From Streptomyces sp. R41 (GTDB taxonomy: Bacteria > Actinomycetota > Actinomycetes > Streptomycetales > Streptomycetaceae): DNA of 64,000 bases. The notes under the pieces are model-generated. The model did no database searches. It had not been told where the DNA came from and saw only the letters and a program-made list of their open reading frames with translations. Shown here one piece after another: positions 29,131-62,635 of the stretch; within the stretch, counting starts at the first letter, position 1, and each line of letters opens with the position of its first letter. The DNA is taken from NCBI RefSeq assembly GCF_041053055.1, contig NZ_CP163443.1, positions 10,027,001-10,091,000 of the forward strand, written 5' to 3'. The translations under genes and the position numbers were made by a program.

Positions 29131-29682
29131 TCACTCCTCGTCGGACGGAGCGTCTTCCGGTTCGGCGTCGGGGCCCTGTGCCCGGACCCGCTGGACGTGC
29201 TCGAGTGAGTCGCGCAGCTCGGTGAGCCAGTCGTCGGTGTGCCGCTGCACGAGGCGTACGCACCAGGCGAGGGCGTCGCTGCGGCTGCGGGCGACACCGG
29301 CGGCGACGAGGGTGTCGAGGACCTGGCGTTCGGGCTGGCGCAACCGGGTCATGACCGGCGCGGCGATGTGCGTGAACAGCGCGCGCTCGTCGCCGCACTC
29401 CACACCCCAGGAGACCTTCTTGCGGAACCGGTGCTCGGCCTCGCGCGCCACCGCGACCCGGCTCTCGCGGGTGCGCTCCCGGAATTCCTGGATGCGTGAC
29501 TGGACGGCCGCCTCCTTCTCGGCGTCCGAGGCGCCTTCGGTGAGCCGGGGCTCGGGGATGCGGCCGATGACCGTGATCTCCTCACGGTCGACCGTCACCT
29601 CCGCGAGGCTCTCGAAGAGATCGTCGGGCAAGCGGCCGGCGAACCAGCCGCGCAGCTTCTCGTGCTGCTCCGTTGTAATCAT
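29131..29682 (-). CDS. Conserved actinobacterial hypothetical protein
   Basis: I cannot assign a function. This is a 183-residue soluble protein: an acidic N-terminus ([18 protein letters not shown]), a strand segment [12 protein letters not shown], a long charged helix with [24 protein letters not shown] and a helical tail that could be RHH- or DNA-binding-like ([28 protein letters not shown]). The latter phrase resembles RHH motifs that end in RSEALAWAV. The start ATG 29682 sits within GTAATCA repeats, so autoregulation is possible. Confidence 0.7.
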
Positions 29683-29689
29683 GTAATCA
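29675..29689. promoter_or_regulatory. Two direct GTAATCA repeats at the start codon
   Basis: GTAATCA occurs at 29675-29681 and 29683-29689, 8 bp apart, covering the ATG of the preceding hypothetical gene. The spacing suits a small dimeric DNA-binding protein acting on its own gene. Confidence 0.35.
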
Positions 29690-29991
29690 CCATTACTCCG
29701 TTGCTCGGCATATGCAAGGGCCTCCGCCATGGGCTGAAGCGGAATGTTTCAGGCCTATTGCCGAGCCAGGGGAATCCGGCCAGGAAGGCGCTTCCTGTGA
29801 TCAACAACCGCCCAGTTCTGGGGCTTGAACTTTCGAATTCCGTAACTTCGCGCCACTGTTTCAACACTCAAAGTTACCGAAACGCATGGGGTCGATGTGT
29901 GTTTCCGGTGCGGACTCGGCAGACTCGCGCTCGCCGATCCGGCAATCAACCGAGCCGGTATGGCATTCAATCGAGCGGAAGGATGCACACA
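29683..29991. other. 309-bp divergent control region with AdpA-box match
   Basis: TGGCCGGATT (minus strand, 29773-29782) fits the AdpA consensus TGGCSNGWWY at every position and lies about 210 bp before the inhibitor gene. Next to it is a small inverted repeat CAGGAAG-GCG-CTTCCTG (29781-29797). The region 29810-29900 is AT-richer and probably contains the inhibitor promoter. Confidence 0.45.
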
Positions 29992-30426
29992 ATGCCGACC
30001 ACCGCGCGCTGGGCAGCGACTCTCACCCTGACGGCCACCGCCGTCTGTGGACCCATGGTCGGGTCCGCCCACGCGGCCCCGAGCCTCGGTCCGTCCGGGC
30101 TCTACGCCCCCTCGGCCCTGGTGCTCACCACCGGCCACGGCAACAGCGCGGCCACCGTCACTCCGGAACGGGCGGTCACCCTGAACTGCGCCCCGACCGC
30201 CTCCGGCACCCACCCCGCCGCCGGCCTGGCCTGCGCCGAACTCCGTGGAGCCGGCGGCGACTTCGACGCCTTGACCGTCAGAGACGGGGCCTTCTGTACG
30301 AAGCAGTTCGACCCCGTGGTCGTCACCGTCGACGGCGTCTGGCAGGGCAAGCGCGTCTCGTACGAGCGCACCTTCGCCAACGAGTGCGTGAAGAACTCCT
30401 ACGGGATGACGGTCTTCACGTTCTGA
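29992..30426 (+). CDS. Subtilisin inhibitor-like (SSI) secreted protease inhibitor
   Basis: This is a 144-residue preprotein. A signal peptide of about 32 residues ends in GSAHA|APSL. The mature part has the SSI four-Cys pattern ([28 protein letters not shown]) and the signature [20 protein letters not shown]. In SSI the P1 residue follows Cys by two; here CTKQF places Lys at P1, so trypsin-like and similar proteases are the likely targets. ATG 29992 is chosen because GGAAGGA lies eight bases upstream. In Streptomyces such inhibitors control extracellular proteases during mycelium turnover. Confidence 0.92.
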
Positions 30427-37569: not shown

Positions 37570-40398
37570 TCACCGCATCTGCCGCCGCACCAGCTCGTGC
37601 AGCCGCCCGCCCGTGTCCGCCAACAGCTGCGCGGGCGGGCCCTGCTGGGCGACCCGGCCGTCCTCCATCACGATCACACGGTCCGCGTCCATCACCGTGG
37701 ACAGGCGGTGCGCGATCACGACCCTTGTGGCGTTGAGCGCCCGGGTGCTCTCGATGACCGTGCGCTGCGTCTCGTTGTCCAGGGCACTGGTCGCCTCGTC
37801 GAAGAAGAGGATGCGAGGGCGGCGGATCAGCGCCTGGGCGATCATCAGACGCTGGCGCTGACCGCCGGAGATCGCACCGCTGCCCGAGACGATCGTGTGC
37901 AGACCCATCGGCATGCGCTTGATGTCCTCGGCCAGGCCCGCCATCTCGGCCGCCGCCATCGCCTCCTCGGGGGTGTACGGCTCGGTGCCGCAGATGCAGT
38001 CCAGGATCGAGCCGGTGAACGGCTGCGCGTGCTGGAGCACCACACCGCACTGACGGCGTACGGCGGACTGGTCGAGGGCCGCCAGATCCTGGCCGTCGTA
38101 CAGCACGCTGCCCGAGACCGGCTTGTCGAAGCCGATGAGCAGCCGTAGCAGCGTGGACTTGCCGCAGCCGCTGGGGCCGACGATCGCCACGAACTCGCCC
38201 GGCCTGATGTCGAACGACACGTCGTCGAGGACGAGCGGGCCGTCGTCGGTGTACCGGAAGGAGAGCCGTCGGGCCTCGATGCCGCCGGACAGGATGCCCG
38301 GACGGGTGCTCGCCACGCGTACCTCGGGCGTCGCGTCGAGCACCGGCCTGATCTCCTCGAACATCGGCAGCGCGGCCGCCGCCGAGACGAACGCGCCGGT
38401 GATCTGGGTGACCGAGGTCAGCAGCATCGTCATCGACGTGTTGAAGGTGAGGAAGTCCGCGGCCGACAGCGAGCCGTGCGCCGGGCCCGCCAGCAGCATG
38501 AACATCAGCAGGGAACAGAGCGGCAGATACACCGCGCCCATCACCGTGGTGAGGTTCTTGATGCGGCCGACCTTCTGCTGGAGCTCACGGCTGCGCGCGA
38601 ACTCGCTCGCCCAGGCGGCGTACGCGTAGTTCTCGGCCGCCGCGACCCGCAGCTTGGGCAGTCCGCGCAGGGTCTGGAAGGCCTGGTTGTTCAGCTTGTT
38701 GCTGAGCACGACAAGCCGTCGCTGCCAGCGCACCTGCCACAGGCCGAGGCCCAGGAACACGGCGGCGATGACGACGAGCATGCCGATCGCGGCCAGCGCC
38801 ATCGGCACGCTGTACCAGAACAGCAGCCCCAGGTTCATCGCGCCGACCGTGCCCGCCTGCGCGACCGTCGGGCCGACACCGGCGAGGAGCCGGCGGATCG
38901 CGCTGATGCCCATGGCGGCACTGGCGAGTTCACCGGTCGAGCGGGAGGTGAAGAACTTGGTCGGCAGCCTGAGCAGCCGGTCCCACACGGCCGGTTGGAG
39001 GGTGGCCTCGATCCGGCCCTCCATCCGCAGCATCGTGAGGTTCTGCAGCAGCATGAACGCCGCCGACACGATGCTGGTGATCATGATGGCCAGGCAGACC
39101 TGCACGATGAGGCCGTGCTGGGCCCTCGGCACGTACTCGCCGAGCACCTTGCCGGTGGCGATCGGCACCAGCGCGCCGATCGCGACGGTCACCAGACCGC
39201 TGATCGCGAGGTTGCGCAAGTCGCCACCTGTGCCCTGAAGGCAGAAGCGCAGCAGCCGCAGCGGGCTCAGCTTCCGCTCGGGCAGCGGACGGTAGAACAT
39301 CACGGCCCGCGGCTCGAACTCCGCCGCGTTCGCCTTCTCGACCGGCGTCTCGCGCCCCGAGGACGGCTGCACGGCCACATATCCGCCGCGCCGCCACAGC
39401 AGCGCGACCGGCGCACCGGACACGGCCCGGTGGCCGATCAGCGGACCGATGTTGTCGCGCCACCAGCGCCCGTCGAGGCGTACGGCACGGGTGCGGACGC
39501 GCGAGGCGAGCGCGATCCGTTCGACCGGGTCGAGCCGGTCGCTCTCCGTCCCGCTCTGCGCGGACTCCGCGAGAGTGATCCCGGCCTCGCGCGCGACCAG
39601 CTTGCACGCCGCGTACGAGGCGTCCGCGTCGGCCGCTGTGGGGCGCTTGGCCGACGACTTGCCGATGGAGGCGAGCAGGGTCCGGTCGGCCTGGGCGCGG
39701 ACGGCCTCACCCGCCTTGATGCCGGCCGCCGTACGGTCCTCGTGGCTGGCCTCCAGCTGCTCGATCCAGCGGTCGAGCGTGGTCAGCAGCCGGTACTGCT
39801 GATCGACCATGCCCTGCCAGACACCGGAGTCCATCAGCAGATCGGCTGCCGCTTCCGCGCCGTACAGCGAGCCGTACTGCACACTGCCCGGCGGCACCTG
39901 CATCCAGAAGACGTCGTCGTCCGTGAGCGCGGCGGCGTTCTCCGTGGCCATCGGAGCCTGGAACAGAACGGAGAGGCTACGGCCGACGCCGAGGGCGAGG
40001 GCGTACTCCAGCGGGCTCGACGTCGGCGGAACGTACTGGGGGTTGCCGTAATCGTCGTACGACCAGGTCTCGGTGTTGACCGGCTGGTACAGCTCGCGCA
40101 GCACGATCCGGTGCACCACGCAGTCGCGCAGCGGCCGTCCCACGAGCGTGTGTTGGGGTCCCGCGACCGGGCCGAGGAGAAGGGAGCCCGCCTCGAGGCG
40201 GCCGAGGTGGTGCCAGTGGCCCTGCTGGGCGGCGTCGACCGCGAACAGGTCCATGGCGCCCGCCGCGACGAGCCAGAGGACTTGCGGGCCTTCCAGATCG
40301 AGGCGGTTGAGGCCGGAGCAGTCGATCGGCGTGCCCATACCGCCGAGCGCGCCGAGGACGAGGTCTCCCTCGTGAACGCCCTCGTGAACCGTGGTCAT
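37570..40398 (-). CDS. NHLP-type bacteriocin export ABC transporter, permease/ATPase without peptidase
   Basis: This is a 942-residue protein. An N-terminal region of about 370 residues, cyclic-nucleotide-like at first and otherwise of unknown fold, is followed by six membrane helices (about 390-680) and an ATPase domain. Walker A is VGPSGCGKST, signature ISGGQRQRL and Walker B ILFFDEATSALD. This matches the second ABC subunit of the NHLM/NHLP bacteriocin export system (TIGR03797 type). There is no C39 domain. One base separates it from the C39-containing exporter, so the two are co-translated and probably form one heteromeric machine. Confidence 0.88.
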   Translation of the reverse strand: MTTVHEGVHEGDLVLGALGGMGTPIDCSGLNRLDLEGPQVLWLVAAGAMDLFAVDAAQQGHWHHLGRLEAGSLLLGPVAGPQHTLVGRPLRDCVVHRIVLRELYQPVNTETWSYDDYGNPQYVPPTSSPLEYALALGVGRSLSVLFQAPMATENAAALTDDDVFWMQVPPGSVQYGSLYGAEAAADLLMDSGVWQGMVDQQYRLLTTLDRWIEQLEASHEDRTAAGIKAGEAVRAQADRTLLASIGKSSAKRPTAADADASYAACKLVAREAGITLAESAQSGTESDRLDPVERIALASRVRTRAVRLDGRWWRDNIGPLIGHRAVSGAPVALLWRRGGYVAVQPSSGRETPVEKANAAEFEPRAVMFYRPLPERKLSPLRLLRFCLQGTGGDLRNLAISGLVTVAIGALVPIATGKVLGEYVPRAQHGLIVQVCLAIMITSIVSAAFMLLQNLTMLRMEGRIEATLQPAVWDRLLRLPTKFFTSRSTGELASAAMGISAIRRLLAGVGPTVAQAGTVGAMNLGLLFWYSVPMALAAIGMLVVIAAVFLGLGLWQVRWQRRLVVLSNKLNNQAFQTLRGLPKLRVAAAENYAYAAWASEFARSRELQQKVGRIKNLTTVMGAVYLPLCSLLMFMLLAGPAHGSLSAADFLTFNTSMTMLLTSVTQITGAFVSAAAALPMFEEIRPVLDATPEVRVASTRPGILSGGIEARRLSFRYTDDGPLVLDDVSFDIRPGEFVAIVGPSGCGKSTLLRLLIGFDKPVSGSVLYDGQDLAALDQSAVRRQCGVVLQHAQPFTGSILDCICGTEPYTPEEAMAAAEMAGLAEDIKRMPMGLHTIVSGSGAISGGQRQRLMIAQALIRRPRILFFDEATSALDNETQRTVIESTRALNATRVVIAHRLSTVMDADRVIVMEDGRVAQQGPPAQLLADTGGRLHELVRRQMR

Positions 40399-40399
40399 C

Positions 40400-42622
40400 T
40401 CATCGCTCCTTGACCAGCTCGGCGTACGGGCCGCCGGCCGCCACCAGGGCGTCGTGCCGCCCGCGTTCCACGATCGTGCCGTGCTGAAGTACGACGATCT
40501 CGTCGCTGTCGCGCACCGTGCTGAGCCGGTGCGCGATCACGACACAGGCGCAGCCGCGCTTGCGCAGGTTGTCCATGACGGTCTGCTCGGTCTCCGCGTC
40601 CAGCGCGCTGGTCACCTCGTCGAGCACGAGGATGCTGGGCCTGCGGACCAACGCCCGTGCGATCTCCAGCCGTTGACGCTGGCCACCGGAGAAGTTGCGC
40701 CCGTCCTGCTCGACCTGGCTGTGGATGCCGCCGGGGCGGCGCATGACCACGTCGTACAGCGCCGCGTCCTCAAGGGCCGCGACCACGGCGTCGTCCGGGA
40801 TCGACGGGTCCCACAGCGCGATGTTGTCGCGGACCGTTCCCTCGAAGAGGAAGACGTCCTGGTCGACGAAGGAGACCGAGGCCGCGAGGGCGCCGCGCGG
40901 GATGTCCTCCAGGCGCTGTCCGTCGATACGGATCGTGCCTTCCCAGGGGGCGTACAGGCCCGAAATCAGCCTGGAGACCGTGGACTTGCCGCTGCCCGAG
41001 CCGCCGACAAGGGCGACCTGCTGCCCCGGGCCGACCGTCAGCGAGAAGCCGGTGAGGAGCGGCTTGTCGAGCGGGCTGTAGCCGAACGTGATGTTCTCCA
41101 GCTCGACATGGCCGTGCAGACGGCGGGTGGACTCGCCGGTGCCGGAACGGGCGTAGAGCGGGTCGGCCTGGAAGTTCTCGACGTCCTTGAGGCGGGCGAC
41201 ATCGGCCGCGAAGTCCTGGATGCGGCCCGCGACCCCGTTGAGGCGGGTGATCGGCGCGGTGAAGCGGGTGACGAGGGCCTGGAAGGCGACCAGCAGACCC
41301 ACCGAGATGTGCCCCTCGATGGCGCGCATACCGCCGATCCACAGGATCAGCGCCGAGTTGAGCGTGGCGAGCGTCGGCGCGACCACGCCCAGCCAGGCGC
41401 TGGGCACACCGAGGCGCTGCTGCTCCTCCAGAGTGGTGGCGTGCTGTCCCGCCCACTTGCGGAAGTAGCCGTCCTCGCCGCCGGTGGCCTTCATCGTCTC
41501 GATCAGCTGGAGTCCGGTGTAGGCCGTGTTGGTGAGCCGGGCGGTGTCCGCGCGCAGCTTCGCGGTGCGGGTCGCGCGCAGCCGGATCACCACCCGCATG
41601 GCCACCACGTTGAGCAGCGCGACGCCGATGCCCACGGCGGTGAGCTGCGGGTCGTAGGTGTAGAGCAGCACGGCGTAGAGCACGACCACGACCGCGTCCA
41701 CACCGGCCGCCGCGAGATCGCGGGCCAGGGTCTCGGCCACGGCGTCGTTCGACTGGAGCCGCTGCACCAGGTCGGCCGGGCTGCGCTGGGAGAAGAACGT
41801 CACCGGCAGCCGCAGCAGATGCCGCAGGAAGCGGGCGCTGGAGAGCGTCGAGGAGATGATGCGGCCGCGCAGCAGATTCGCCTGCTGCAACCAGGTCAGC
41901 ACCACCGTGAGCAGCACGGAGGCACCCATCGACGCGAACAGCACGCCGAGCAGCGAGCTCTGGCCACCGATCAGATACTGGTCGATGTACGTCCGGCTGA
42001 GCGCGGGCACCGCCGCGCCGACCGCCACCAGCAGCAGACTCGCCAGCACCGCTGCGGGCATGGTGCCCGACGTGCCGCGCAGCCGGGCCGGCATGGCGCC
42101 CAGGACCCCCGGTTTGCGGCCGCCCTTGCGGAAGTCGGGCCCCGGCTCCATGACCAGGACGACCCCGGTGAAGCTCGTGTCGAAGTCCTCCATCGGCACG
42201 AAACGGCGGCCCTTGCCGGGGTCGTTGATGTGCACGCCGCGTCGTCCGAAGCGGCGCCCCATGCCGTCGTACACGACATAGTGGTTGAACTCCCAGAACA
42301 GGATCGCGGGCGCCCTCACCTCGGCGAGCGCGGCCGTGTCCATCTGCATGCCCTTGGCCGTCAGGCCGTAACTGCGCGCCGCCTTCAACAGGTTGCTGGC
42401 GCGTGAGCCGTCCCGCGAGACACCGCACGCGATGCGCAGCTCTTCGAGCGGGATGTGCCGGCCGTAGTGGCCGAGGACCATGGCGAGGGAGGCCGCGCCG
42501 CACTCGACGGCCTCCATCTGGAGCACGGTGGGCGTGCGGACGGTCTTCCGCCTGCCCTTGGGAACCGTGCGCTTCGGTGGGGCGGCCCGGCGTCTGCCCC
42601 GGGTGTCGTGTGCGGTGGTCAC
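40400..42622 (-). CDS. NHLP-type export ABC transporter with C39 leader peptidase
   Basis: This is a 740-residue protein of TIGR03796 type. The C39 domain occupies residues 30-155, with Cys41 (EAVECGAAS), His114 (EFNHYVVYD) and Asp134 (HINDPGKG) as a complete catalytic triad that cuts after double-Gly leaders. A transmembrane part (about 180-470) and an ATPase follow: VGGSGSGKST, FSGGQRQRLEIARAL and ILVLDEVTSAL. The GTG start at 42622 overlaps the HlyD-like stop (GTGA). It should process and export the precursor encoded upstream. Confidence 0.92.
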   Translation of the reverse strand: MTTAHDTRGRRRAAPPKRTVPKGRRKTVRTPTVLQMEAVECGAASLAMVLGHYGRHIPLEELRIACGVSRDGSRASNLLKAARSYGLTAKGMQMDTAALAEVRAPAILFWEFNHYVVYDGMGRRFGRRGVHINDPGKGRRFVPMEDFDTSFTGVVLVMEPGPDFRKGGRKPGVLGAMPARLRGTSGTMPAAVLASLLLVAVGAAVPALSRTYIDQYLIGGQSSLLGVLFASMGASVLLTVVLTWLQQANLLRGRIISSTLSSARFLRHLLRLPVTFFSQRSPADLVQRLQSNDAVAETLARDLAAAGVDAVVVVLYAVLLYTYDPQLTAVGIGVALLNVVAMRVVIRLRATRTAKLRADTARLTNTAYTGLQLIETMKATGGEDGYFRKWAGQHATTLEEQQRLGVPSAWLGVVAPTLATLNSALILWIGGMRAIEGHISVGLLVAFQALVTRFTAPITRLNGVAGRIQDFAADVARLKDVENFQADPLYARSGTGESTRRLHGHVELENITFGYSPLDKPLLTGFSLTVGPGQQVALVGGSGSGKSTVSRLISGLYAPWEGTIRIDGQRLEDIPRGALAASVSFVDQDVFLFEGTVRDNIALWDPSIPDDAVVAALEDAALYDVVMRRPGGIHSQVEQDGRNFSGGQRQRLEIARALVRRPSILVLDEVTSALDAETEQTVMDNLRKRGCACVVIAHRLSTVRDSDEIVVLQHGTIVERGRHDALVAAGGPYAELVKER

Positions 42623-43428
42623 GGCAGGAGCCAATCGATGGGGCGCTGATCGGCCATGCGGATCGAACCCGTGGCCAGGGTCATGGAGGTGAGCGCGAAC
42701 GGCGGCCCGTCAGCCGAGGACCACTTGAGGCCGCTCTTCGTGCCGGAGGAGCGGTCGAGGCGGACCAGGACGGCCACCGGCCTGCCCTTCTTGGTGAACT
42801 GCTCGCCCAGTTGGCTGTCACCGAGGAAGGAGGCGATCTGCTGCTGGGTCTGCACGGTCCGGTCGACCGACTTCACATGGCCGCGCAGCACCCCGTACTG
42901 CTGGGTCGGCACCGACTGGACGGTGAGGTCGACGGCGGCGTTCGCGGGAATCGTGGAGGCGTTCTCGGCGGGGACGTACACGGTCGCGTACAGCGGATCG
43001 TCGGCATGCGCGACTTTTTCCACGGCGGCGACATTCGCGCCGGTCGAGATGATCGCGCCGATGGTGGCGGCGAGCGCGGTGATGCGGCCGGCGGCGACCG
43101 TCCGGACGACGGCCGTTTCCCCTTGCGCCGTACGGACCTTCAGTACGGGGGCGTTCGCGGCGAGCCGTTCGCCCTCCTTGGCGAGGACCGCGGTGACCTG
43201 CCCCGCGACGGGGCTCTGCAGGACGTAACTGCCCTCCCCGTGCGTGAGGATGGCGGGTGCGCCGACCGTGGACGCGACGGTGCCCGTCACGGCCCACACC
43301 GACGCGGCCGCCATGACGACGACCGTCACGGACAGCACGAGCCAGCCCTGAGGGCGGGCGAAGCGCACCGGAAGGTCCAGCTCTTCGGGTGATTGCAGCT
43401 TGGCGAGGGCCTGTTGGCGGAACTGCAC
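42619..43428 (-). CDS. HlyD-like membrane fusion protein of the NHLP export system
   Basis: This is a 269-residue protein with a short cytoplasmic start, one membrane helix (about 28-50) and a biotinyl-lipoyl-like/beta-barrel periplasmic-type domain (SPVAGQVTAVLAKEGERLAANAPVLKVR). It matches the NHLM secretion protein group (TIGR03794 type). In a monoderm host it probably links the exporter to the wall. The start is GTG 43428 with GAGGGAAG upstream. The precursor gene lies 90 bp before it with a hairpin between. Confidence 0.87.
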   Translation of the reverse strand: MQFRQQALAKLQSPEELDLPVRFARPQGWLVLSVTVVVMAAASVWAVTGTVASTVGAPAILTHGEGSYVLQSPVAGQVTAVLAKEGERLAANAPVLKVRTAQGETAVVRTVAAGRITALAATIGAIISTGANVAAVEKVAHADDPLYATVYVPAENASTIPANAAVDLTVQSVPTQQYGVLRGHVKSVDRTVQTQQQIASFLGDSQLGEQFTKKGRPVAVLVRLDRSSGTKSGLKWSSADGPPFALTSMTLATGSIRMADQRPIDWLLP

Positions 43429-43468
43429 GGGACTTCCCTCACCTGTTCGAGAGATTTACGACATCCGA

Positions 43469-43501
43469 GAGTCCCGGAACCGGGAAGCGGTTCCGGGACT
43501 C
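43469..43501 (-). terminator. Hairpin between precursor gene and transporter genes
   Basis: Perfect 13-bp arms GAGTCCCGGAACC (43469-43481) and GGTTCCGGGACTC (43489-43501) enclose 7 nt. It sits 18 bp after the precursor stop, so most transcripts may end here, giving much precursor and little transporter. No U run. Confidence 0.75.
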
Positions 43502-43518
43502 AACGGCATGAAATGCGA

Positions 43519-43734
43519 TCAGAGACCGGCAACCAGGCCGGTGACCGGGGCGGTGTTCAGGCCGGTCACACCCTCGACGGTGCCGACGGCCGTGCCCACG
43601 AGGCCGGAGACCGGGGCAACGCTGTCGACCAGGCCGGTGACGGTGCCAACGGCGTTCAGCGACAGGCCGCCGGAGACGTTGTCGAGGTCGGCGTCCGAGA
43701 TCTCAGCGGTCTCAACACGGGGGGTGGAGTTCAT
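43519..43734 (-). CDS. Double-glycine-leader precursor peptide, Cys-free Gly/Val/Thr-rich core
   Basis: This is a peptide of 71 residues. Residues 1-23 form a leader with the acidic ETAEISDADLDNVSGG end typical of C39 substrates. Cleavage after GG23 gives a 48-residue core starting LSLNAVGTVTGLVDS. The core has no Cys, His, Lys, Arg or aromatic residue, two Asp/Glu, and repeated (T/S)GLV motifs; APVSGLV and APVTGLV are 22 residues apart. AAGGGAAG lies before the ATG. It is probably an exported bacteriocin-like, structural or signalling peptide. No lanthipeptide synthetase, radical-SAM or cyclodehydratase gene is near, so lanthionine bridges are impossible here. Confidence 0.82.
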   Translation of the reverse strand: MNSTPRVETAEISDADLDNVSGGLSLNAVGTVTGLVDSVAPVSGLVGTAVGTVEGVTGLNTAPVTGLVAGL

Positions 43735-44214
43735 GGTGGAACTTCCCTTCGTCTGGATATTTCATAAGGGGGGAGCGGCCCCCTCTGGGGGACAGATGAC
43801 GGCCGCCACCGCGAGCGCGCGGCGCCCGTTTCCGGGAGCCTTGGTGCGACCCCCGCGGTGCAACGGATCAAAGCACGCCCGCATGGCGCGTATCCAATCA
43901 ACCAGGGCTCTCACCTGGGCACTTGAGCACTTCCACCGTCCAACCGTGCAGGCGTGCACACGTCTTTGCGGCGACTTCTTCACATGCTGCGCGGCATCGG
44001 TTCGTGCGCACCCTTGCCGACCCGGGATCGAATGGGACAGTCCCGTCGCAATGGCGCGGAGGGGGGCGCGCGACTGTGCAGATCTGTCGCGCGCCGTGGC
44101 TTCGTTGCGTATTCGATGTGCAGATTCGCTGAAGCCAGGATTCCGTTCTTGGTCGGGAACGGACCGTTACCGATCAGTAGCGGACTGTGTCGTGCGCGGA
44201 GGTGCGCGGACCGC
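43735..44214. other. 480-bp region upstream of the precursor gene
   Basis: The precursor promoter should lie in 43750-43950; an AT-rich patch (ATGAAATATCC on the minus strand) is near 43763. A hairpin with perfect 10-bp arms GGCGCGCGAC/GTCGCGCGCC at 44065-44095 is probably the terminator of the thioesterase gene. TGTGCAGAT occurs twice (about 44075 and 44117). No gene on either strand is convincing. Confidence 0.5.
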
Positions 44215-44637: not shown

Positions 44638-44822
44638 TGTTCCCCGGTCACTCGGCACAAGGGCGGGATTGCCTGGTAATCCATGCCTTTCGCCGAGGTA
44701 ACTCCTGCCTTTCTTAAAGGCAGTTGAACAACCCACGTGGCTCACGCGTATCAACAACCATCCAGGCGCCCCCAGTCAGCTGCCGGACGGCGGCATCGAC
44801 CCCGTCCCCAGGAGGTCAAGAG

Positions 44823-46178
44823 TTGAGTCACAAACGGATACCCAAGCGCAAGGCCGCCCTCGCGGCAGGAAGCGTGGCGGCGCTCGGAGCGGCGGCACTT
44901 CTGCTGCCCAATGCCAACGCGTCCCAGACGAACTCGGACGACGCCACCCCGAAGACGTTCAAGGCGACCGATGTCGCGGACGTCGCCTCGCAGCTCGCCT
45001 CCCAGTTGGGTGACGCCTTCGCCGGGTCGTACTACGACGGCTCGAAGCAGCAGCTCATCATCAACGTCGTCGGCGACAACAGCAATGTCGTCAACCAGAT
45101 CGAGAAGGCCGGCGCCGTCGCCAACGAGGTGCAGAACAGCACCTCCACGCTCCAGGCCGCCGCCAAGACGCTGAAGACGGACGCGACGATCCCGGGCACG
45201 GCGTGGGCCGTCGACCCGAAGACCAACAAGATCCAAGTCACCGCCGACAGCACGGTCACGGGTGCCAAGTGGAACAAGCTGACGTCGACCGTCGACTCGC
45301 TCGGTTCCGGTGTGGCAGCCGTCAAGAAGTCCGCCGGCACGTTCAAGACGTTCGTGTCGGGCGGTGACGCCATCTTCGCCCAGGCGAACGGCGGCGGCGT
45401 CCGCTGCTCCCTCGGCTTCAACGTCACCGCGAGCGACGGCAGCCCCGCCTTCCTCACCGCCGGGCACTGCGGTGTCGCGGCCGCCCAGTGGTCGGACTCG
45501 CAGGACGGCCAACCGATCGCGACCGTCGACCAGGCAACCTTCCCCGGTGCCGGCGACTTCTCACTCGTGAAGTACGACGACCCCAACACGCAGGCGCCGA
45601 GCGAGGTCAACGTCGGCAACGGGCAGACCGTCCAGATCACCCAGGCGGCGGAGGCCACGGTCGGTCAGCAGGTCCTCCGGATGGGCAGCACCACCGGTCT
45701 GCACGATGGTTCGGTCACGGGTCTCGACGCCACCGTCAACTTCCAGAGTGAAACCGACCCCAACGGTGTCGACACCGTCACCGGTCTCATCCAGACCGAC
45801 GTCTGCGCCGAGGCGGGCGACAGTGGCGGCTCCCTGTTCACCCAGGACGGCAGCGCGATCGGCCTGACCTCGGGCGGCAGCGGCGACTGCACCACCGGCG
45901 GTGAGACCTTCTTCCAGCCCGTCACGACCGCGCTGGCAGCGGTCGGTGCGACGCTCGGCGCGGGAGACGCAGGGGCAGGGGCCGGGGCCGGGGCCGGGGC
46001 CGGCGACGACGGCGCGGCCGACCCGAGCGCCGGCGCCAGCGACCCGGCGGGCGCGGGCGACCAGGCCGGTGGCGCCGACGATCAGGCCGGTGGCGCCGCG
46101 GACCCGAGCGGAGCCGCGGACGACCAGTCCGGCACCGGCGTGGACGACGGCTCGGGCCTGGTGACCACCACCCCCTGA
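44823..46178 (+). CDS. Secreted S1-family serine protease (streptogrisin-like)
   Basis: This is a 451-residue prepro-enzyme. Signal peptide (KRIPKRKAALAAGSVAALG..., about 1-36), alpha-lytic-type propeptide (about 45-175) and S1 protease (about 190-375). The triad is His in FLTAGHCG, Asp in GAGDFSLVKYD and Ser in CAEAGDSGGSLF; disulfide Cys residues are present. The C-terminal 75 residues are Gly/Ala/Asp low-complexity with AG repeats, unlike plain streptogrisins. TTG 44823 is chosen because GGAGG lies eight bases before it. It probably degrades extracellular protein and may be held by an SSI-type inhibitor such as the one encoded at 29992. Confidence 0.92.
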   Translation: MSHKRIPKRKAALAAGSVAALGAAALLLPNANASQTNSDDATPKTFKATDVADVASQLASQLGDAFAGSYYDGSKQQLIINVVGDNSNVVNQIEKAGAVANEVQNSTSTLQAAAKTLKTDATIPGTAWAVDPKTNKIQVTADSTVTGAKWNKLTSTVDSLGSGVAAVKKSAGTFKTFVSGGDAIFAQANGGGVRCSLGFNVTASDGSPAFLTAGHCGVAAAQWSDSQDGQPIATVDQATFPGAGDFSLVKYDDPNTQAPSEVNVGNGQTVQITQAAEATVGQQVLRMGSTTGLHDGSVTGLDATVNFQSETDPNGVDTVTGLIQTDVCAEAGDSGGSLFTQDGSAIGLTSGGSGDCTTGGETFFQPVTTALAAVGATLGAGDAGAGAGAGAGAGDDGAADPSAGASDPAGAGDQAGGADDQAGGAADPSGAADDQSGTGVDDGSGLVTTTP

Positions 46179-46363: not shown

Positions 46364-48514
46364 TCAGTCGTGTGGGCACGCCCGCAGCAGGAGCAGCGCG
46401 ACATCGTCGGGCCGCTCCTGCGTCGCCGTCTCGCCATGCTGTACGAGGCTGTCGGCCAGCGTGTCCAGGGGCTGGTCGCCGGTCTCGGCGAGCTGCCGGC
46501 CGAGGTCGGCGAGGGCGTCCTCGATGTCGACGCCGGGGGACTCGATCAGACCGTCGGTATAGAGGGCGAGCACGGAGCCGGGGGTGAACGGCACCTCGGT
46601 CGTCGGATACGTGGCCGACGCGTCGATCCCGAGCAGCGGCCCGCCCGCCAGGTCGAGCACCCTGACCTTGCCGTCCGGCCGCCGCAGCAACGGCGGCGGG
46701 TGGCCCGCGCGCGCCATGACGGCCACCTCGCGCGCGGGGTCGAGACGCAGATACAGACAGCTGGCGAAGAGGTCGGTGCCCAGATCGATCAACAGGCGGT
46801 TGGTGCTGCGCATCACTTCCTCCGGTGACTGACCGACGGTCGTGTACGCCCGTACTGCGGTGCGGATCTGCCCCATCAGGCCCGCCGCCGTCACGTTGTG
46901 GCCCTGCACGTCGCCGATCACCGCCGCGGCCCGGCCGCGCGAGGGCATCAGGTCGTAGAAGTCCCCGCCGATGTCCATGCCCTGCGAGGCCGGGAGATAA
47001 CGCGCGGCCGCCTCGATCGAGGGCAGCGACGGCAGCGAGTGCGGCAGCAGCGCGGCCTGCAGACCGTGCGCCAGCTTGAACTTGGCGTCGTAGAGGAGGG
47101 CACGCTCCAGCGCCTGCGCGATCAGCCCGCCCAGACTCGTCAGGACGGCACGCTCATCGGCGGGGAAGGCGTGCGGCTGCGCGTACGCCAGGACGCAGGT
47201 GCCCACCGGCCGCCCGGACGCGATGAGCGGCAGATACGCCCACGCGGCCATGCCGTCCGGTGTCGCGTTCCGGGACGGGTAGACGCGCTCCAGCTGCTGA
47301 AGCGAGTCGAAGAAGGCGGGAACGCCGGAGTTCAGCGCATGGGTACCAGGAGTCTGCGCGCTGAGCGGCATCCCGTCGAAGCGCTCCACGATGTGCGCGT
47401 CCGGATACCCCCGATGCCCGAGCACATGGAGGCGCCCGGCCTGCGTGCCGAGGACGACCAGGGCCTGGCTGCCGACGGCGGGCGCGATCTCGTCCGCGAC
47501 CAGCTGCACCACGTCCTGCACGCCCGCCGCCTCCGTGAGCGCGCTCGCCAGACTCAGCACATGGGAGATGGTCACCAGGCGAGGGGTGTCGTCACCGCGC
47601 TGCGGCTCGGTACGCGTCATCTCGGCCACCGCCCGGGCCCGCGAGATGCGCACGCTCAGCCCGTTCGTACTGGGATAGAGGCGGAACGACAGCCAGTCGC
47701 CGGGCGGCCGCAGCGCCACGAACGAGGTCACCTGCTGGCTGAGCAGCGCGGCACGGTAGCGGTCCTCGTAGACGGGGTCGTTGAGCCAGGGCACCGCCGC
47801 CCACAGCTGGGTGCCCAGCAGTGCGCTGACCGGGACGCCGAGCAGCTCGGCCGTCGCCGTGTTCGCGTAGCTGATCCGCCCGTACAGATCCAGCGCGCAC
47901 AGCCCGTACGGCAGCCGCGCCGCCATCCGCGCGGCCTCCACCGTGCCGAGTGTGCCGGCCACGGTCGCTGCGGCGGCGGGTGCCAGCAGGTCCGGCTCGG
48001 GGTGTACGGGACGATGCTCCTCGGCGGCCCGTTCCAGGCGCAGCGCGAGCCGGTCGCAGGCCGCGGTGAGATGGTCGCGTTCCCGGTCGGACAGCTCCGG
48101 CGGGTGCGAGCCGGGCCAGGTCACGAAGACGGCGCCGTACGCCTTGTTCGCGGTCGCCACGGGGAGCGCCGCCAGCGCGAAGGGATAGGGGAGCACCACG
48201 GCGATCCGCGGATAGCGGCTGGCCATCTGCTCCTCGCCGCTGACCCAGATCAGCCGCCGCTCCCGTACCGCCTCGGCCACCGGGATCGGCGCGCTCAGCC
48301 CCACCCGCTCCCACGGCGCGGCGAAGGCCCTGGGCAGCCCCGCCATGACCGCCATCTCCAGGACCGGCTCGCGGGGCGCCAGCAGATAGACCGCGCCGGA
48401 GTGGGCGTGGACGTCGTCCATCATCGCGGCCAGCGTCAGCGACAGCAGCGGCCGTCCGACCGGCGCCGGTCGACCCCCCGCCGGCGCCTGCCCGGACCCC
48501 TGCCAGTCGGACAC
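46364..48514 (-). CDS. PP2C/SpoIIE-family phosphatase with PAS and GAF sensing domains
   Basis: This is a 716-residue cytoplasmic regulator. An N-terminal GAF-like region (about 20-160), a PAS domain (LPYGLCALDLYGRISYANTATAELLG, about 200-290), a second GAF domain (about 325-470) and a SpoIIE phosphatase (about 490-715: GGDFYDL, IGDVQGHNVTAAGLMGQ, RAGHPPPLL, DGLIES). Such proteins dephosphorylate STAS antagonists in partner switches. GTG 48514 has GAGGAG eight bases upstream; the GTG at 48523 lies inside that site. It is divergent from a related phosphatase. Confidence 0.87.
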   Translation of the reverse strand: MSDWQGSGQAPAGGRPAPVGRPLLSLTLAAMMDDVHAHSGAVYLLAPREPVLEMAVMAGLPRAFAAPWERVGLSAPIPVAEAVRERRLIWVSGEEQMASRYPRIAVVLPYPFALAALPVATANKAYGAVFVTWPGSHPPELSDRERDHLTAACDRLALRLERAAEEHRPVHPEPDLLAPAAAATVAGTLGTVEAARMAARLPYGLCALDLYGRISYANTATAELLGVPVSALLGTQLWAAVPWLNDPVYEDRYRAALLSQQVTSFVALRPPGDWLSFRLYPSTNGLSVRISRARAVAEMTRTEPQRGDDTPRLVTISHVLSLASALTEAAGVQDVVQLVADEIAPAVGSQALVVLGTQAGRLHVLGHRGYPDAHIVERFDGMPLSAQTPGTHALNSGVPAFFDSLQQLERVYPSRNATPDGMAAWAYLPLIASGRPVGTCVLAYAQPHAFPADERAVLTSLGGLIAQALERALLYDAKFKLAHGLQAALLPHSLPSLPSIEAAARYLPASQGMDIGGDFYDLMPSRGRAAAVIGDVQGHNVTAAGLMGQIRTAVRAYTTVGQSPEEVMRSTNRLLIDLGTDLFASCLYLRLDPAREVAVMARAGHPPPLLRRPDGKVRVLDLAGGPLLGIDASATYPTTEVPFTPGSVLALYTDGLIESPGVDIEDALADLGRQLAETGDQPLDTLADSLVQHGETATQERPDDVALLLLRACPHD

Positions 48515-48744
48515 GCCGACCACCTCCTCGCAGGGCCGCGCGACGGATCCCAGGGATCAAGGCTCTCTCCTGGCGGCCCTTCCCGCACGGCGAGCGGACC
48601 CGTCGTACGCGCCGCACGGTGGAAGACCCCCCGGGGTCCCCCGACGCTCGGATACCACGCCGTGACAGCGATGTCGCAGGCCCGACAGGCTCGGAACGGT
48701 CACAGGGGCTGCGCGAGCGTCCCGGAAGCGCTGTAATTGCGGAC

Positions 48745-51177
48745 GTGGTCAGTGAGGGCGCGGCGGAACGCAGAACGAGAACGCTGCGTGCCGAACTTGC
48801 CCTCAAGACGCTCACCACGGACCTGGACCCGCGCGAGCGGCTGCGCCGCGTCCTGGAACAGGCGCTCGTCTTCACCAGCGTGACCCTCGCCGCGGTGTAC
48901 TCACCGAGCGAGAGCGGCGACGAACTGCACCTGGCCGAGTCCGCCGGGCTGCCGAGGACGCTGTACGGGCTGCGCGACAGCTATCCCCTCTCCGGCGGGT
49001 CCCCCGCGGCGGACGCCCACCGCTCGGGCCGGCCGCTGTGGCACGGCCCCGAGGAGCTCGGCCGCTGGACGGACGCCCGGCGGCTGCCGTCGCAGGAGTT
49101 CTCGCTGGGCGTGCTGCCGCTGCGGGACGACGGTTGCCTGGTAGCCGTCACCGAGAACCCGGGCGGCTTCGGTTCCGAGGACCGGGAGTATCTGGGCCTG
49201 CTCGCCGAGGCCGTCGTCTGCCCCTCGCCCGCCGAGGCGCAGGACACCGAGGCCCTGCCCGCCAGCTCCTTCAGCCTCGCCATGGACACCGGGCAGGTCG
49301 AGGTCGACGACGAGATGCTGGAGCTGTTCGGTCTCAGCCCGGACGACTTCGACGGCAAGGTGGAGACGCTGCTGTCGATGACGGTGCCCGAGGACCTCCC
49401 CTCGCTGATGTCCGCGGTGGAGCCGGACCACATGTCCGTCGGCGACCGTGAGCTGGAGTTCCGGATTCTGGGGCCCTCCGGCGGGCAGAAGTGGCTGCGT
49501 CTGCGCGCCCGCCTGCTGCCCGGCATCGAAGGCCGGCCCGCACGACTCGTCGGCACGGTGTCCGAGGCTTCGAAGCTGCGCACCGGCGTCAATGACGTGG
49601 CGCGCGTCCAGCGGCTCGCCACCGCCCTCGCCACCGTGGGCACCGTCCGCGATGTGGGCCGCGCCGTGGTCACCGCCCTCCGCAAGCCCCTCCAGGCCGA
49701 CCGGATCGCCCTCGCCGAACTGGAGGGCGACCGACTCGTCGTCACGGTCCTGGACCCGCCGGAGCCCGAGGCCTGGCCCGAGCTGTGGCGCACCGAATGG
49801 CGCTCGGAATGGCCCGACGCACCCGTCCGGGCCATGCCGACGCTCGCCGCGGCCCTCAGCGAGGGGCGCTCCGCCATCTGGCCCGCCGGGGCGCCCCTGG
49901 AACCCGCTCTCGCCGAGGTGGGCCCCGGCGGCCTCGCCGTCCTGCCGCTGCCCGCCGGCGGACGGATGGCCGGCGCGTGCCTGATCGGCTGGGACACCCC
50001 GCACGACTTCGGCCCCGACGAACGCACCCTGCTCACCGCCGCCGCGGCGCTCACGGGCCAGGCCCTGGTGCGCGCCCACGCCTTCGACGCCGAACACGAG
50101 CTCATCGGCATGCTCCAGCGCTCTCTGCTCCCACGCCGGCTGCCTCGGCTGCCCGGCGCGGTCGCCGTCGCCCGCTATCTGCCGACCACGGCCGGTCTGG
50201 AGGTCGGCGGCGACTGGTACGACGTGATCCCGCTGCCCGGCAATCATGTCGCCCTCGTCATCGGCGACGTCCAGGGACACAACGCCTCGGCCGCGACCCT
50301 CATGGGCCAGATGCGTACGGCTCTGCGCGCCTACGCCATCGAAGGGCATCCTCCCGACGTGGTGGTCTCGCACGCCAACCGTCTCCTCATGGACCTCGAG
50401 ACGGACCTCTTCGCCACCTGCTGCTACGTTGACGTGGACATGGAGGAGGGCTCCGCCTGGTACGTCCGCGCCGGACATCTGCCGCCGGTGCTGCGTCACC
50501 CGGACGGCCGCACGGAGATCCTCGAGTCGGACGGCGGGCCGCCGCTCGGCGTCGTCACCCAGGCCGACTTCCCCATGAGCCCGCTGCGGCTCCAGCCCGG
50601 CTCGATCGTGGCCCTGACCACGGACGGTCTCGTCGAGTCCGTCGAGGTCGACATCGAGGACGGCCTGAACCGGCTCGCCTCGGAGCTGGCGGCCTCCGAC
50701 CCCGCCCACCTCGGACTCGTGGCCGACGGACTGCTCACGAGCGCCAACCGCAGCGACGACGTGGCCCTGCTCCTGATGCGCTACGACGGCCTGGCGACGC
50801 GTCCGCTCCGCGAGAGCTGGACCGTCTGGCGCGTCCCCGAGGCGGTCCGGCACGCCCGCCGCTTCACCAGGCGCACGCTGCGCACCTGGGGCGTGAGCGA
50901 CAACCTGGACGCCGTACTCCTCGTCGTCTCCGAGCTCGTCACCAACGCCCTCGTGCACACCGACGGCCAGGTCCGGATGGACCTCACCCTGATCAACCAC
51001 CGTCTGCGGGTCGCGGTCGCCGACAACTCGCCGCGCTCGCCGATCAAGCCCACCAGCATCGGCTGGGAGGCCACCGGCGGCCGCGGCATCCTCCTGGTCG
51101 AGGCCATGTCGGCGGCCTGGGGGACGGTGCCGGTGAGCGGCGGGAAGCAGGTGTGGAGCGAGGTCCTGCTGGAGTGA
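48745..51177 (+). CDS. SpoIIE-family phosphatase fused to an RsbW-like ATPase domain
   Basis: This is an 810-residue protein. GAF-like domain (about 30-150), PAS-like domain (about 180-270), GAF domain (about 290-440), SpoIIE phosphatase (about 455-680: GGDWYDV, IGDVQGHNASAATLMGQ, RAGHLPPVL, DGLVES) and a C-terminal HATPase (ELVTNALVHTDGQVRM; GGRGILLVEAMSAAWG). It therefore has both phosphatase and RsbW-type kinase modules for a STAS partner. The start is uncertain; I use GTG 48745 because homologous regions begin there, but the frame is open to 48619. The STAS protein at 30604 is a possible but unproven partner. Confidence 0.85.
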   Translation: MVSEGAAERRTRTLRAELALKTLTTDLDPRERLRRVLEQALVFTSVTLAAVYSPSESGDELHLAESAGLPRTLYGLRDSYPLSGGSPAADAHRSGRPLWHGPEELGRWTDARRLPSQEFSLGVLPLRDDGCLVAVTENPGGFGSEDREYLGLLAEAVVCPSPAEAQDTEALPASSFSLAMDTGQVEVDDEMLELFGLSPDDFDGKVETLLSMTVPEDLPSLMSAVEPDHMSVGDRELEFRILGPSGGQKWLRLRARLLPGIEGRPARLVGTVSEASKLRTGVNDVARVQRLATALATVGTVRDVGRAVVTALRKPLQADRIALAELEGDRLVVTVLDPPEPEAWPELWRTEWRSEWPDAPVRAMPTLAAALSEGRSAIWPAGAPLEPALAEVGPGGLAVLPLPAGGRMAGACLIGWDTPHDFGPDERTLLTAAAALTGQALVRAHAFDAEHELIGMLQRSLLPRRLPRLPGAVAVARYLPTTAGLEVGGDWYDVIPLPGNHVALVIGDVQGHNASAATLMGQMRTALRAYAIEGHPPDVVVSHANRLLMDLETDLFATCCYVDVDMEEGSAWYVRAGHLPPVLRHPDGRTEILESDGGPPLGVVTQADFPMSPLRLQPGSIVALTTDGLVESVEVDIEDGLNRLASELAASDPAHLGLVADGLLTSANRSDDVALLLMRYDGLATRPLRESWTVWRVPEAVRHARRFTRRTLRTWGVSDNLDAVLLVVSELVTNALVHTDGQVRMDLTLINHRLRVAVADNSPRSPIKPTSIGWEATGGRGILLVEAMSAAWGTVPVSGGKQVWSEVLLE

Positions 51178-60591: not shown

Positions 60592-60702
60592 ATGCGCACA
60601 CCGCTCATGTCCACCCAGGAAGGAATCACTCCCACTTCAAAGGACATGACGCCCGGTGCATATGCTCAACCTGGGAATTCTGGCGCACGTAGACTCCGGT
60701 AA
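60592..60702 (+). CDS. Short upstream ORF (36 codons) overlapping the ribosomal-protection gene
   Basis: ATG 60592 has GAGGAG six bases upstream. The frame runs 36 codons to TAA at 60700 and is in a different frame from the main gene, overlapping its first 47 bases. It begins MRTPLMSTQEG and is rich in Thr and Pro. Leader peptides that control ribosome-protection genes through stalling are known for tet(M). This one may couple or attenuate translation, which is an inference; a non-functional frame is possible. Confidence 0.5.
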   Translation: MRTPLMSTQEGITPTSKDMTPGAYAQPGNSGARRLR

Positions 60703-62635
60703 GACAAGCCTGACCGAGCGGCTGCTGCACTCGGTCGGGGTCATCGACGAGATCGGCAGCGTCGACGACGGAAACACCCAGACCGATTCCCTCGCGCTCG
60801 AACGACAGCGTGGCATCACGATCAAATCCGCCGTCGTCTCCTTCGCGATCGACGACATCACCGTCAACCTGATCGACACCCCCGGCCACCCGGACTTCAT
60901 CGCCGAGGTGGAGCGGGTGCTCAGCGTGCTCGACGGCGCCGTACTCGTCGTCTCGGCCGTGGAGGGCGTACAGGCGCAGACTCGTGTGCTGATGCGGACG
61001 CTCCAGCGGCTGCGGATTCCCACGCTCGTCTTCGTGAACAAGATCGACCGCGGCGGAGCGCAGTACGACCGTGTACTTGAGGGCATCTCCACGCGGCTCA
61101 CCCCGGCGATCGTCCCGATGGGCCAGGTGGGTGAACCGGGCACGCGGGACGCTCGCTTCACCCCGTTCGACGACGCCGGGCTCCAGGCGTCCCTCCTCGA
61201 TCCGCTCGCCGAGCACGACGACGACCTGCTGGCCGCGTACGGCCGGGTGTCGTACGACCGGCTCCGCGCCGCTCTTGTGCGGCAGACCGGGGAGGCCCTG
61301 GTGCACCCCGTGTTCTTCGGCTCGGCCATGACGGGAGCGGGCATCGCGGAACTGATCTCCGGGATCAAGGAGTTGCTGCCCTCGGCCGAGGGCGATGCCG
61401 ATGGTCCGGTCTCGGGCACCGTCTTCAAGGTCGAGCGCGGACCCGCGGGGGAGAAGATCGCGTACGCGCGGATGTTCTCCGGGACACTGCGGACGCGCGA
61501 CCGGTTGACCCTCCGCGACGGTGCGGAGGGCAAGGTCACCGCGATCAGCGTCTTCGACCAGGGCTCGGCCGCCCGGGAGGAGGCCGTGGCGGCGGGGCGG
61601 ATCGGCAAACTCTGGGGGCTGAGCGACATCCGCGTCGGCGACATGATCGGCGCACCGCGGAAATCGCCGATCGAGGAGCACTATTTCTCCCCGCCGACGC
61701 TCGAAACCGTCGTCGTCCCGTGTCATTCGGCCGACAAGGGCGCCCTGCATGTCGCGCTGACTCAACTCGCCGAACAGGACCCGTTGATCAATCTTCGGCA
61801 CGACGAAGTGCGCAAGGAGATCTCCGTGTCGCTCTACGGCGAGGTGCAGAAGGAGGTCATCCAGGCGACGCTGGCGGACGAGTTCGGTATGGACGTCATG
61901 TTCCGCGAGACGACGCCCCTGTGCATCGAACGGCCCGTGGGCACCGGTGCGGCGGTCGAGTTCAACAAGAAGGACGCCAATCCGTTTCTCGCGACCGTCG
62001 GACTGCGCATCGATCCGGCGCCGGTCGATTCCGGTGTGGAATTCCGGCTGGAGGTCGAACTGGGGGCGATGCCGTACGCGTTCTTCAAGGCGGTCGAGGA
62101 CACCGTGAAGGAGACGCTGGGGCAGGGAATCCACGGATGGCAGGTCACCGACTGCACGGTCACCATGACCCATTCCGGCTATTCACCACGGCAGAGCCAC
62201 GCCCACCAGGGCTTCGACAAGAGCATGTCCAGCACCGGAGCCGACTTCCGGGGCCTGACACCGCTGGTGGTGATGAGCGCGCTCCGGGAGGCGGGCAGCC
62301 AGGTGTACGAGCCGATGCACCGGTTCCGTCTGGAGGCCCCGGCGGACACACTCGCGGCGGTGCTGCCCGTGCTCGCCCAACAGCGCGCCGTGTCGCAGAC
62401 CACGGAAATTCGCGGCGCCTCATGTGTGCTGGAGGGCGTCGTCCCGGTCGCCCACGTGCATGAACTGGAGCGACAGCTACCGGGGTTGACGCGCGGCGAG
62501 GGCGAGCTGGAGTGCGCCTTCGACCACTACGCGCCGGTCGTGCGAGGCACGGTCCCGGACCGGCCGCGGACCGACCTCAACCCGCTCGACCGGAAGGAGT
62601 ACCTGCTGAACGTGACGCGACGGGTCGGCAGTTGA
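60656..62635 (+). CDS. Tet(M)/OtrA-type ribosomal protection GTPase
   Basis: This is a 659-residue EF-G paralogue. GTPase motifs are AHVDSGKT (G1), RGIT (G2), DTPGH (G3), NKID (G4). Domains III-V follow, with the loop SGYSPRQSHAHQGFD that reaches the decoding centre in Tet(O)/Tet(M). OtrA proteins in Streptomyces release tetracyclines from the ribosome. Length is right for the family (about 640-660). GTG 60656 has AAAGGA ten bases upstream; ATG 60662 is an alternative. Whether it gives resistance or is a housekeeping-like paralogue cannot be told here. Confidence 0.9.
   Translation: MHMLNLGILAHVDSGKTSLTERLLHSVGVIDEIGSVDDGNTQTDSLALERQRGITIKSAVVSFAIDDITVNLIDTPGHPDFIAEVERVLSVLDGAVLVVSAVEGVQAQTRVLMRTLQRLRIPTLVFVNKIDRGGAQYDRVLEGISTRLTPAIVPMGQVGEPGTRDARFTPFDDAGLQASLLDPLAEHDDDLLAAYGRVSYDRLRAALVRQTGEALVHPVFFGSAMTGAGIAELISGIKELLPSAEGDADGPVSGTVFKVERGPAGEKIAYARMFSGTLRTRDRLTLRDGAEGKVTAISVFDQGSAAREEAVAAGRIGKLWGLSDIRVGDMIGAPRKSPIEEHYFSPPTLETVVVPCHSADKGALHVALTQLAEQDPLINLRHDEVRKEISVSLYGEVQKEVIQATLADEFGMDVMFRETTPLCIERPVGTGAAVEFNKKDANPFLATVGLRIDPAPVDSGVEFRLEVELGAMPYAFFKAVEDTVKETLGQGIHGWQVTDCTVTMTHSGYSPRQSHAHQGFDKSMSSTGADFRGLTPLVVMSALREAGSQVYEPMHRFRLEAPADTLAAVLPVLAQQRAVSQTTEIRGASCVLEGVVPVAHVHELERQLPGLTRGEGELECAFDHYAPVVRGTVPDRPRTDLNPLDRKEYLLNVTRRVGS

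Follow-up and report, generated by a model that had tools for sequence, protein, structure and literature searches.

Among described systems the nearest to the locus considered here is sco0753-0756 of Streptomyces coelicolor, in which, according to the passages covered of a 2019 account (PMC6629963), a Cys-free hydrophobic peptide precedes its exporter genes in an order conserved in many Streptomyces. In those passages sco0753 is the most overexpressed gene (log2 6.3) of a dispersed-growth strain carrying the Sco5282-D125G kinase, the exporter genes sco0754-0756 are up in the same strain (log2 approximately 4.3), sco0753 is almost silent in the null mutant, and an effect of the peptide on the hyphal surface is proposed, with SapB as the comparison. 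Parts of a second paper report that sco0753 is up in an aor1 mutant, and class the four genes as a bacteriocin cluster, as is done in S. coelicolor papers (PMC5733086). Passages on the NHLP exporters state that these usually serve modified peptides, and that their leaders resemble class II leaders (PMC2887384). Here we describe an operon of this kind from Streptomyces sp. R41, whose genome is a single contig of 10.46 Mb (NZ_CP163443.1; 99.56% complete). It lies on the minus strand, at positions 37570 to 43734, of a 64,000-nucleotide stretch (contig positions 10,027,001 to 10,091,000) that is called the window below. It encodes a small precursor peptide and an exporter, and precursors with the same leader occur far from it. 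We consider it moderately probable, on the strength of sequence comparisons, that one exporter and one regulon serve several apparently unmodified secreted peptides.

The export operon and its precursor

The genes for the precursor, an HlyD-like protein, a C39-ABC protein and a second ABC protein form one minus-strand operon in that order, which was kept at 80/80 related loci; these loci rank highest among 226 confirmed stretches, and all counts out of 80 below refer to them. The precursor gene (43519..43734), recognised as an open reading frame (ORF) with homologues, has an ATG start and encodes 71 residues, with codons 1-23 (43666-43734) forming a leader that ends in Gly-Gly (SGG) and codons 24-71 (43522-43665) the core. 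It is followed by a short-form HlyD-like membrane fusion protein of 269 residues (42619..43428; identified by NCBIfam, Pfam and locus comparison), by a C39 peptidase/permease/ATPase (40400..42622) whose GTG start overlaps the hlyD stop, and by a second ABC permease/ATPase without a peptidase domain (37570..40398). In NCBIfam the C39-ABC protein scored 1027 bits against TIGR03796 (cut-off 853.3) and the second ABC protein 906.8 bits against TIGR03797 (cut-off 709.4). The HlyD-like protein reached 146.6 bits against TIGR03794, under the cut-off of 156.2, and its best stretch, residues 97-269, aligned to positions 245-417 of the 421 in the model. The triad Cys45/His118/Asp138, judged by a motif that we take to be the catalytic one of C39 peptidases, was present in 80/80 relatives. 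Together these coordinates, family scores and triad residues confirm a sequence-only reading of the window, which had described a double-glycine precursor, HlyD, a C39-ABC exporter with an intact triad and a second ABC subunit.

The precursor itself gave no nitrile-hydratase- or Nif11-like leader match in NCBIfam or Pfam and no Pfam match above cut-off; its top NCBIfam match was to the plantaricin C family (E 0.15, 12.5 bits, cut-off 29). A protein search with it returned 683 homologues at E ≤ 0.01, and many of the best 120, which were listed, bear the name 'type A2 lantipeptide'. In two wider samples, one of 150 Streptomyces genomes and one of 293 genomes of the order, the main precursor (P0001) was matched in 97/150 and 183/293 genomes, respectively, the latter in three of nine genera.

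Between the precursor and hlyD lies a hairpin (43469..43501, minus strand) with a perfect 14-bp stem and a 5-nt loop. Perfect stems of at least 8 bp were found here at 69/80 loci, compared with 2/80 shuffles. Since no T-run follows it, the hairpin is read as an attenuator or mRNA stabiliser, a likely role that would allow more precursor than exporter to be made.

The main core, LSLNAVGTVTGLVDSVAPVSGLVGTAVGTVEGVTGLNTAPVTGLVAGL, has 48 residues, two of them acidic, and contains no Cys, Lys or Arg. All 80 homologues are 71 residues long, start with ATG and are Cys-free; their cores carry two to three acidic residues, and none has Lys, Arg, His or an aromatic residue. The reading frame is conserved, the loss of which would have spoken against the sequence-only reading, and the core is free of Cys, as that reading had noted. 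Its account of the repeats holds in part: APV(S/T)GLV does occur twice, a number reached in none of 20,000 shuffles of the core, while the three copies of (T/S)GLV, reached in a fraction of 5e-05 of the shuffles (one), begin at residues 33, 43 and 65 and so are spaced by 10 and 22 residues, not regularly by 10-12. Ratios of nonsynonymous to synonymous substitution (dN/dS) of 0.26 for the leader and 0.49 for the core indicate purifying selection, but carry little weight because the 81 sequences were picked for likeness and the code is GC-rich.

Precursors sharing a leader and an upstream signature

Whole-peptide searches gave second, weaker matches in many genomes, aligned mostly over the leader. 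In R41 the second precursor has 69 residues (1568631-1568840) and lies 8.5 Mb from the main one; its core, LSPEVGIAAGPTAISSSDLVGQFGAVKDGVLDTVGQYHQVGATVSF, differs from the main core, is likewise Cys-free, and has 108 relatives. The R41 genome thus holds two leader-bearing precursors and one C39 protein. Across the genus sample a leader profile (A1) was matched in 108/150 genomes and the C39 domain (PF03412) in 117/150. A C39 match occurred in 107/108 leader-positive and 10/42 leader-negative genomes (Fisher p = 9.6e-23), so leader and exporter do co-occur, an association that is in part to be expected, the main precursor adjoining the exporter, and to which related genomes do not contribute independently. 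The matches listed (150), together with one main gene in G128, gave 151 leader genes, of which 97 lie within 6 kb of a C39 gene. The remaining 54 are spread over 45 genomes; for six of them the genome has no leader gene near an exporter, and these six may be main genes truncated at a contig end.

Fifty of these orphans were read, and 41 were Cys-free and nine had one Cys. Those read include L107, L125, L128, L130, L132 and L139, all six of them leader peptides, with a single Cys in one. These six were left out of statistics on 53 cores, which showed lengths of 42-62 residues, a median of 68% Gly/Ala/Val/Ser/Thr and a median net charge of -2. The orphan cores fall into several groups that are unlike each other and similar in make-up. 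Two expectations drawn from the window alone were not upheld, namely that cores with this leader are always Cys-free and that the exporter serves a single precursor, since it appears to serve several unlinked ones. Single-Cys cores were seen in L139 (4001-4198, plus strand), L085, L113, L118, L124, L129, L131, L133 and L136; such peptides could form disulphide dimers. At one locus of genome G144 (L138, 3989-4850, plus strand) a tandem pair of leader peptides with differing Cys-free cores stands before the exporter.

The make-up of the cores bears on the possibility that these are unmodified, class II-like bacteriocins exported through the C39 protein. A Gly-Gly leader with a C39-ABC exporter is the class II arrangement, and the bacteriocin label of sco0753-0756 and the class II likeness of NHLP leaders, cited above from parts of those papers, point the same way. 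The absence of Lys and Arg from 80/80 main cores, with their acidic residues and the negative median charge, and the lack of a conserved immunity-like gene beside the precursor (80 loci and Pfam scans of the window) speak against a typical bacteriocin, however, and, unlike most antagonistic peptides, the main core varies little from species to species. We regard this explanation as unlikely.

Upstream of the main gene, on the minus strand, a CGTGCTTTGATC element (43866..43877) lies approximately 140 bp from the ATG, with a TGG element (43894..43896) 16 bp further upstream, so that the two form a promoter-like pair. The resulting bipartite signature, TGG-N15/16-CGTGnTTTGATC, is common to the main gene and most orphans. 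The R41 genome (10.46 Mb) has a single copy of the inner GTGCTTTGATC, at the main locus, and a pattern of CGTGNTTTGATC followed at 95-125 bp by GAAGGGNAG, a ribosome-site pattern, has two matches in the genome, which are the two precursors. The element matched at 11/12 positions or better upstream of 74/81 main genes and 34/50 orphans, at approximately 53 to 171 bp from the ATG, and the best shuffle reached 9/12. Of L107, L125, L128, L130, L132 and L139, five had it at 12/12 and one at 10/12. TGG stood at a spacer of 16 in 79/79 main genes with an element of at least 10/12, at 15 or 16 in 32/34 orphans, and at 16 in seven of eight others, a mixed group of exporter-adjacent genes and the orphans L090, L092 and L097. 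The exact CGTGCTTTGATC was found at 104 sites in the 150 Streptomyces genomes, compared with five for a reversed-pattern control, and 92 of the 104 stand upstream of one of the listed leader genes. Apart from the TGG and CGTG blocks the orphans have few conserved columns, which favours a function of the blocks over simple common descent. The geometry of the two blocks resembles that of a promoter pair, perhaps one read by an alternative sigma factor.

A family of peptides with one leader, varied cores and one regulatory signature might also consist of secreted signals, quorum-type or developmental, several of them passing through one exporter; passages of PMC6629963 link the S. coelicolor peptide to a two-component system and to morphology. 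For signals, though, hydrophobic cores of 42-62 residues would be long, and the genes immediately next to the precursor include no conserved receptor or kinase. We consider a signalling family very unlikely.

Export, regulation and the question of modification

In the reading that we favour, the operon would be devoted to exporting a family of peptides that are small, hydrophobic, acidic and apparently unmodified. Each precursor would be cleaved by the C39 domain behind the Gly-Gly of its leader, and the core would leave the cell through the two ABC subunits and the short HlyD-like protein. Orphan precursors, recognised through the common leader, would be handled in trans by the same exporter, and main and orphan genes would be co-expressed from the promoter-like TGG-N15/16-CGTGnTTTGATC signature. 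The mature peptides would then act on or around the hypha, as surface coat, matrix or in clumping, rather than as antibiotics. Within this reading a surface or matrix role is the most likely function, and fits best because the peptides would be abundant, small, hydrophobic, charge-poor and strongly conserved, and have no immunity gene. More tentatively, we propose as a possible but doubtful extension that a dedicated sigma factor or regulator reads the signature, and that the one C39-ABC exporter releases in trans the diversifying, unmodified cores of an unrecognised class of hyphal-surface material.

Whether the cores are indeed unmodified was approached through the enzymes encoded nearby and elsewhere. 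Pfam scans of 51 of the 56 called genes in the window and of three other ORFs showed no known domain of an enzyme tailoring ribosomally synthesised and post-translationally modified peptides (RiPPs), in agreement with the sequence-only reading, and no conserved modifying enzyme stands beside the precursor across the 80 loci. That reading would be undermined by a modification enzyme elsewhere that co-occurs with the precursor; for LanC-like enzymes none appeared, as the R41 genome has no match to the LanC-like domain (PF05147), and 17 of the 20 genus genomes without this domain carry the leader, with no positive association between the two (Fisher p = 0.19, 150 genomes). The radical-SAM/SPASM search, made in the R41 genome only, gave one weak match (30.5 bits) 1.48 Mb away. 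Genome-wide, these negatives cover LanC and, in R41, radical-SAM/SPASM; YcaO and LanB were not searched for.

The precursors might accordingly still be RiPPs modified by enzymes encoded at a distance, through dehydration, epimerisation or other tailoring, and then exported. NHLP exporters normally serve modified peptides, as the parts covered of PMC2887384 state, the cores are rich in Thr and Ser, LanC-like proteins occur in 130/150 genus genomes, and R41 does have its one SPASM protein. In addition, 12 of the 68 loci with enough flank (L014, L015, L020, L024, L032, L036, L046, L047, L051, L052, L066 and L067) carry a C-terminal fragment of a LanC-like protein at their edge, some 10 kb from the precursor on its upstream side. 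LanC-like matches occur in each of these 12 genomes, and those near the precursor lie in frames of approximately 860-960 residues, which by their size are LanKC-like; we read them as a separate class III cluster that adjoins the locus in some species. With LanC absent from R41, the leader present in 17 of the 20 LanC-free genomes, no conserved modifying enzyme at the 80 loci, and the SPASM match so weak and distant, distant modification seems to us fairly unlikely.

For R41 an identity as LANTHIPEPTIDE, or lanthipeptide, was rejected, both precursor cores lacking the Cys that thioether rings require and no LanC-like domain being present; the database label 'type A2 lantipeptide' misleads because this near-complete genome has no such domain. 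A Gly-Gly peptide of genome G099 (L141) has a Cys-rich core and adjoins a LanC-like protein, and was set aside as a true lanthipeptide-type decoy; it is among the 53 rows of the element comparison, and neither the orphan counts nor the core statistics include it.

Several points weigh against an export regulon of unmodified peptides. Besides the limits on the leader/C39 association given above, the frequency of LanC-like proteins in the genus and their fragments near some loci, genome G001 has a leader gene and no C39 match, in an assembly that is 79% complete and in 630 contigs. The exact CGTGCTTTGATC precedes only 24/54 listed orphans and 68/97 exporter-near genes, in 10/50 orphans the element is at 9/12 or worse, and 12 of the 104 exact sites, read for hidden precursors, showed no Gly-Gly ORF after them. 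The element may also have been inherited in part with the leader through duplication.

The leader is found in 108/150 sampled Streptomyces, roughly two thirds, and databases name its bearers lantipeptides, and much mining would seek an antibiotic with modifications. Should the peptides prove unmodified and co-regulated, they would represent a common Streptomyces secretion line with a structural or signalling role. The DNA signature would allow the substrates of each genome to be listed directly, including those that gene finders call hypothetical.

Neighbouring genes and known systems

Divergent from the operon is a gene (44724..46178, plus strand, start at 44724 or later) for an S1 protease with an alpha-lytic-protease prodomain (Pfam), which has a relative at 78/80 loci. 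This secreted-type protease may be a candidate partner, for example in processing or turnover, or merely a stable neighbour. Further upstream of the precursor, beyond this gene, are two genes for SpoIIE-type phosphatases with GAF/PAS domains (46364-48523, minus strand, and 48619-51177, plus strand), each matched at 71/80 loci, counts that may overlap because the two phosphatases are related. Elsewhere in the window, both on the plus strand, are a subtilisin-inhibitor-like (SSI) protein (29662-30426), whose ORF as listed has an N-terminal extension, and an EF-G-like GTPase of 659 residues with EFG III, IV and C domains (60656-62635), which from its size and domains we take to be possibly of the ribosome-protection type.

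Class II double-glycine bacteriocins share with this locus a Gly-Gly leader, a C39-ABC exporter and the lack of a modification enzyme. They typically have a cationic core and an immunity gene, whereas the main core here is acidic and free of Lys and Arg, no immunity gene is conserved, and the precursors are scattered over the genome. Compared with the NHLP/NHLM systems (TIGR03794/03796/03797), both ABC subunits are above the curated cut-offs; in contrast, the HlyD-like protein is short and below its cut-off, the precursor has no NHLP/Nif11-like leader match, and no maturation enzyme was seen. SapB (ramS) and the chaplins are likewise small hydrophobic secreted peptides tied to the hyphal surface. 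SapB belongs to the lanthipeptides, and a LanC-like enzyme takes part in its synthesis, while chaplins use Sec signals; to our knowledge neither uses a C39-ABC exporter, and no sequence match was found.

The S. coelicolor genes sco0753-0756, as presented in the passages covered, have the same four-gene order, with the gene of a short, Cys-free hydrophobic peptide followed by those of HlyD and two ABC proteins. The sco0753 peptide, quoted there as 77 residues (PMC6629963) compared with 71 here, is likened to ours by its description; a homologue from a strain named S. violaceoruber (P0022) is 89% identical to the R41 precursor. The covered passages of that account mention no orphan precursors, no promoter-like signature common to several genes and no hairpin. 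Searches of openly licensed papers for the element, for orphan precursors and for NHLM peptides of Streptomyces returned no title or abstract that describes this regulon. The locus and its oddity are thus already known from S. coelicolor, as far as those passages go, and what is new relative to the titles, abstracts and passages covered is the presence of leader-sharing orphan precursors far from the exporter, together with the signature that they share with the main gene.

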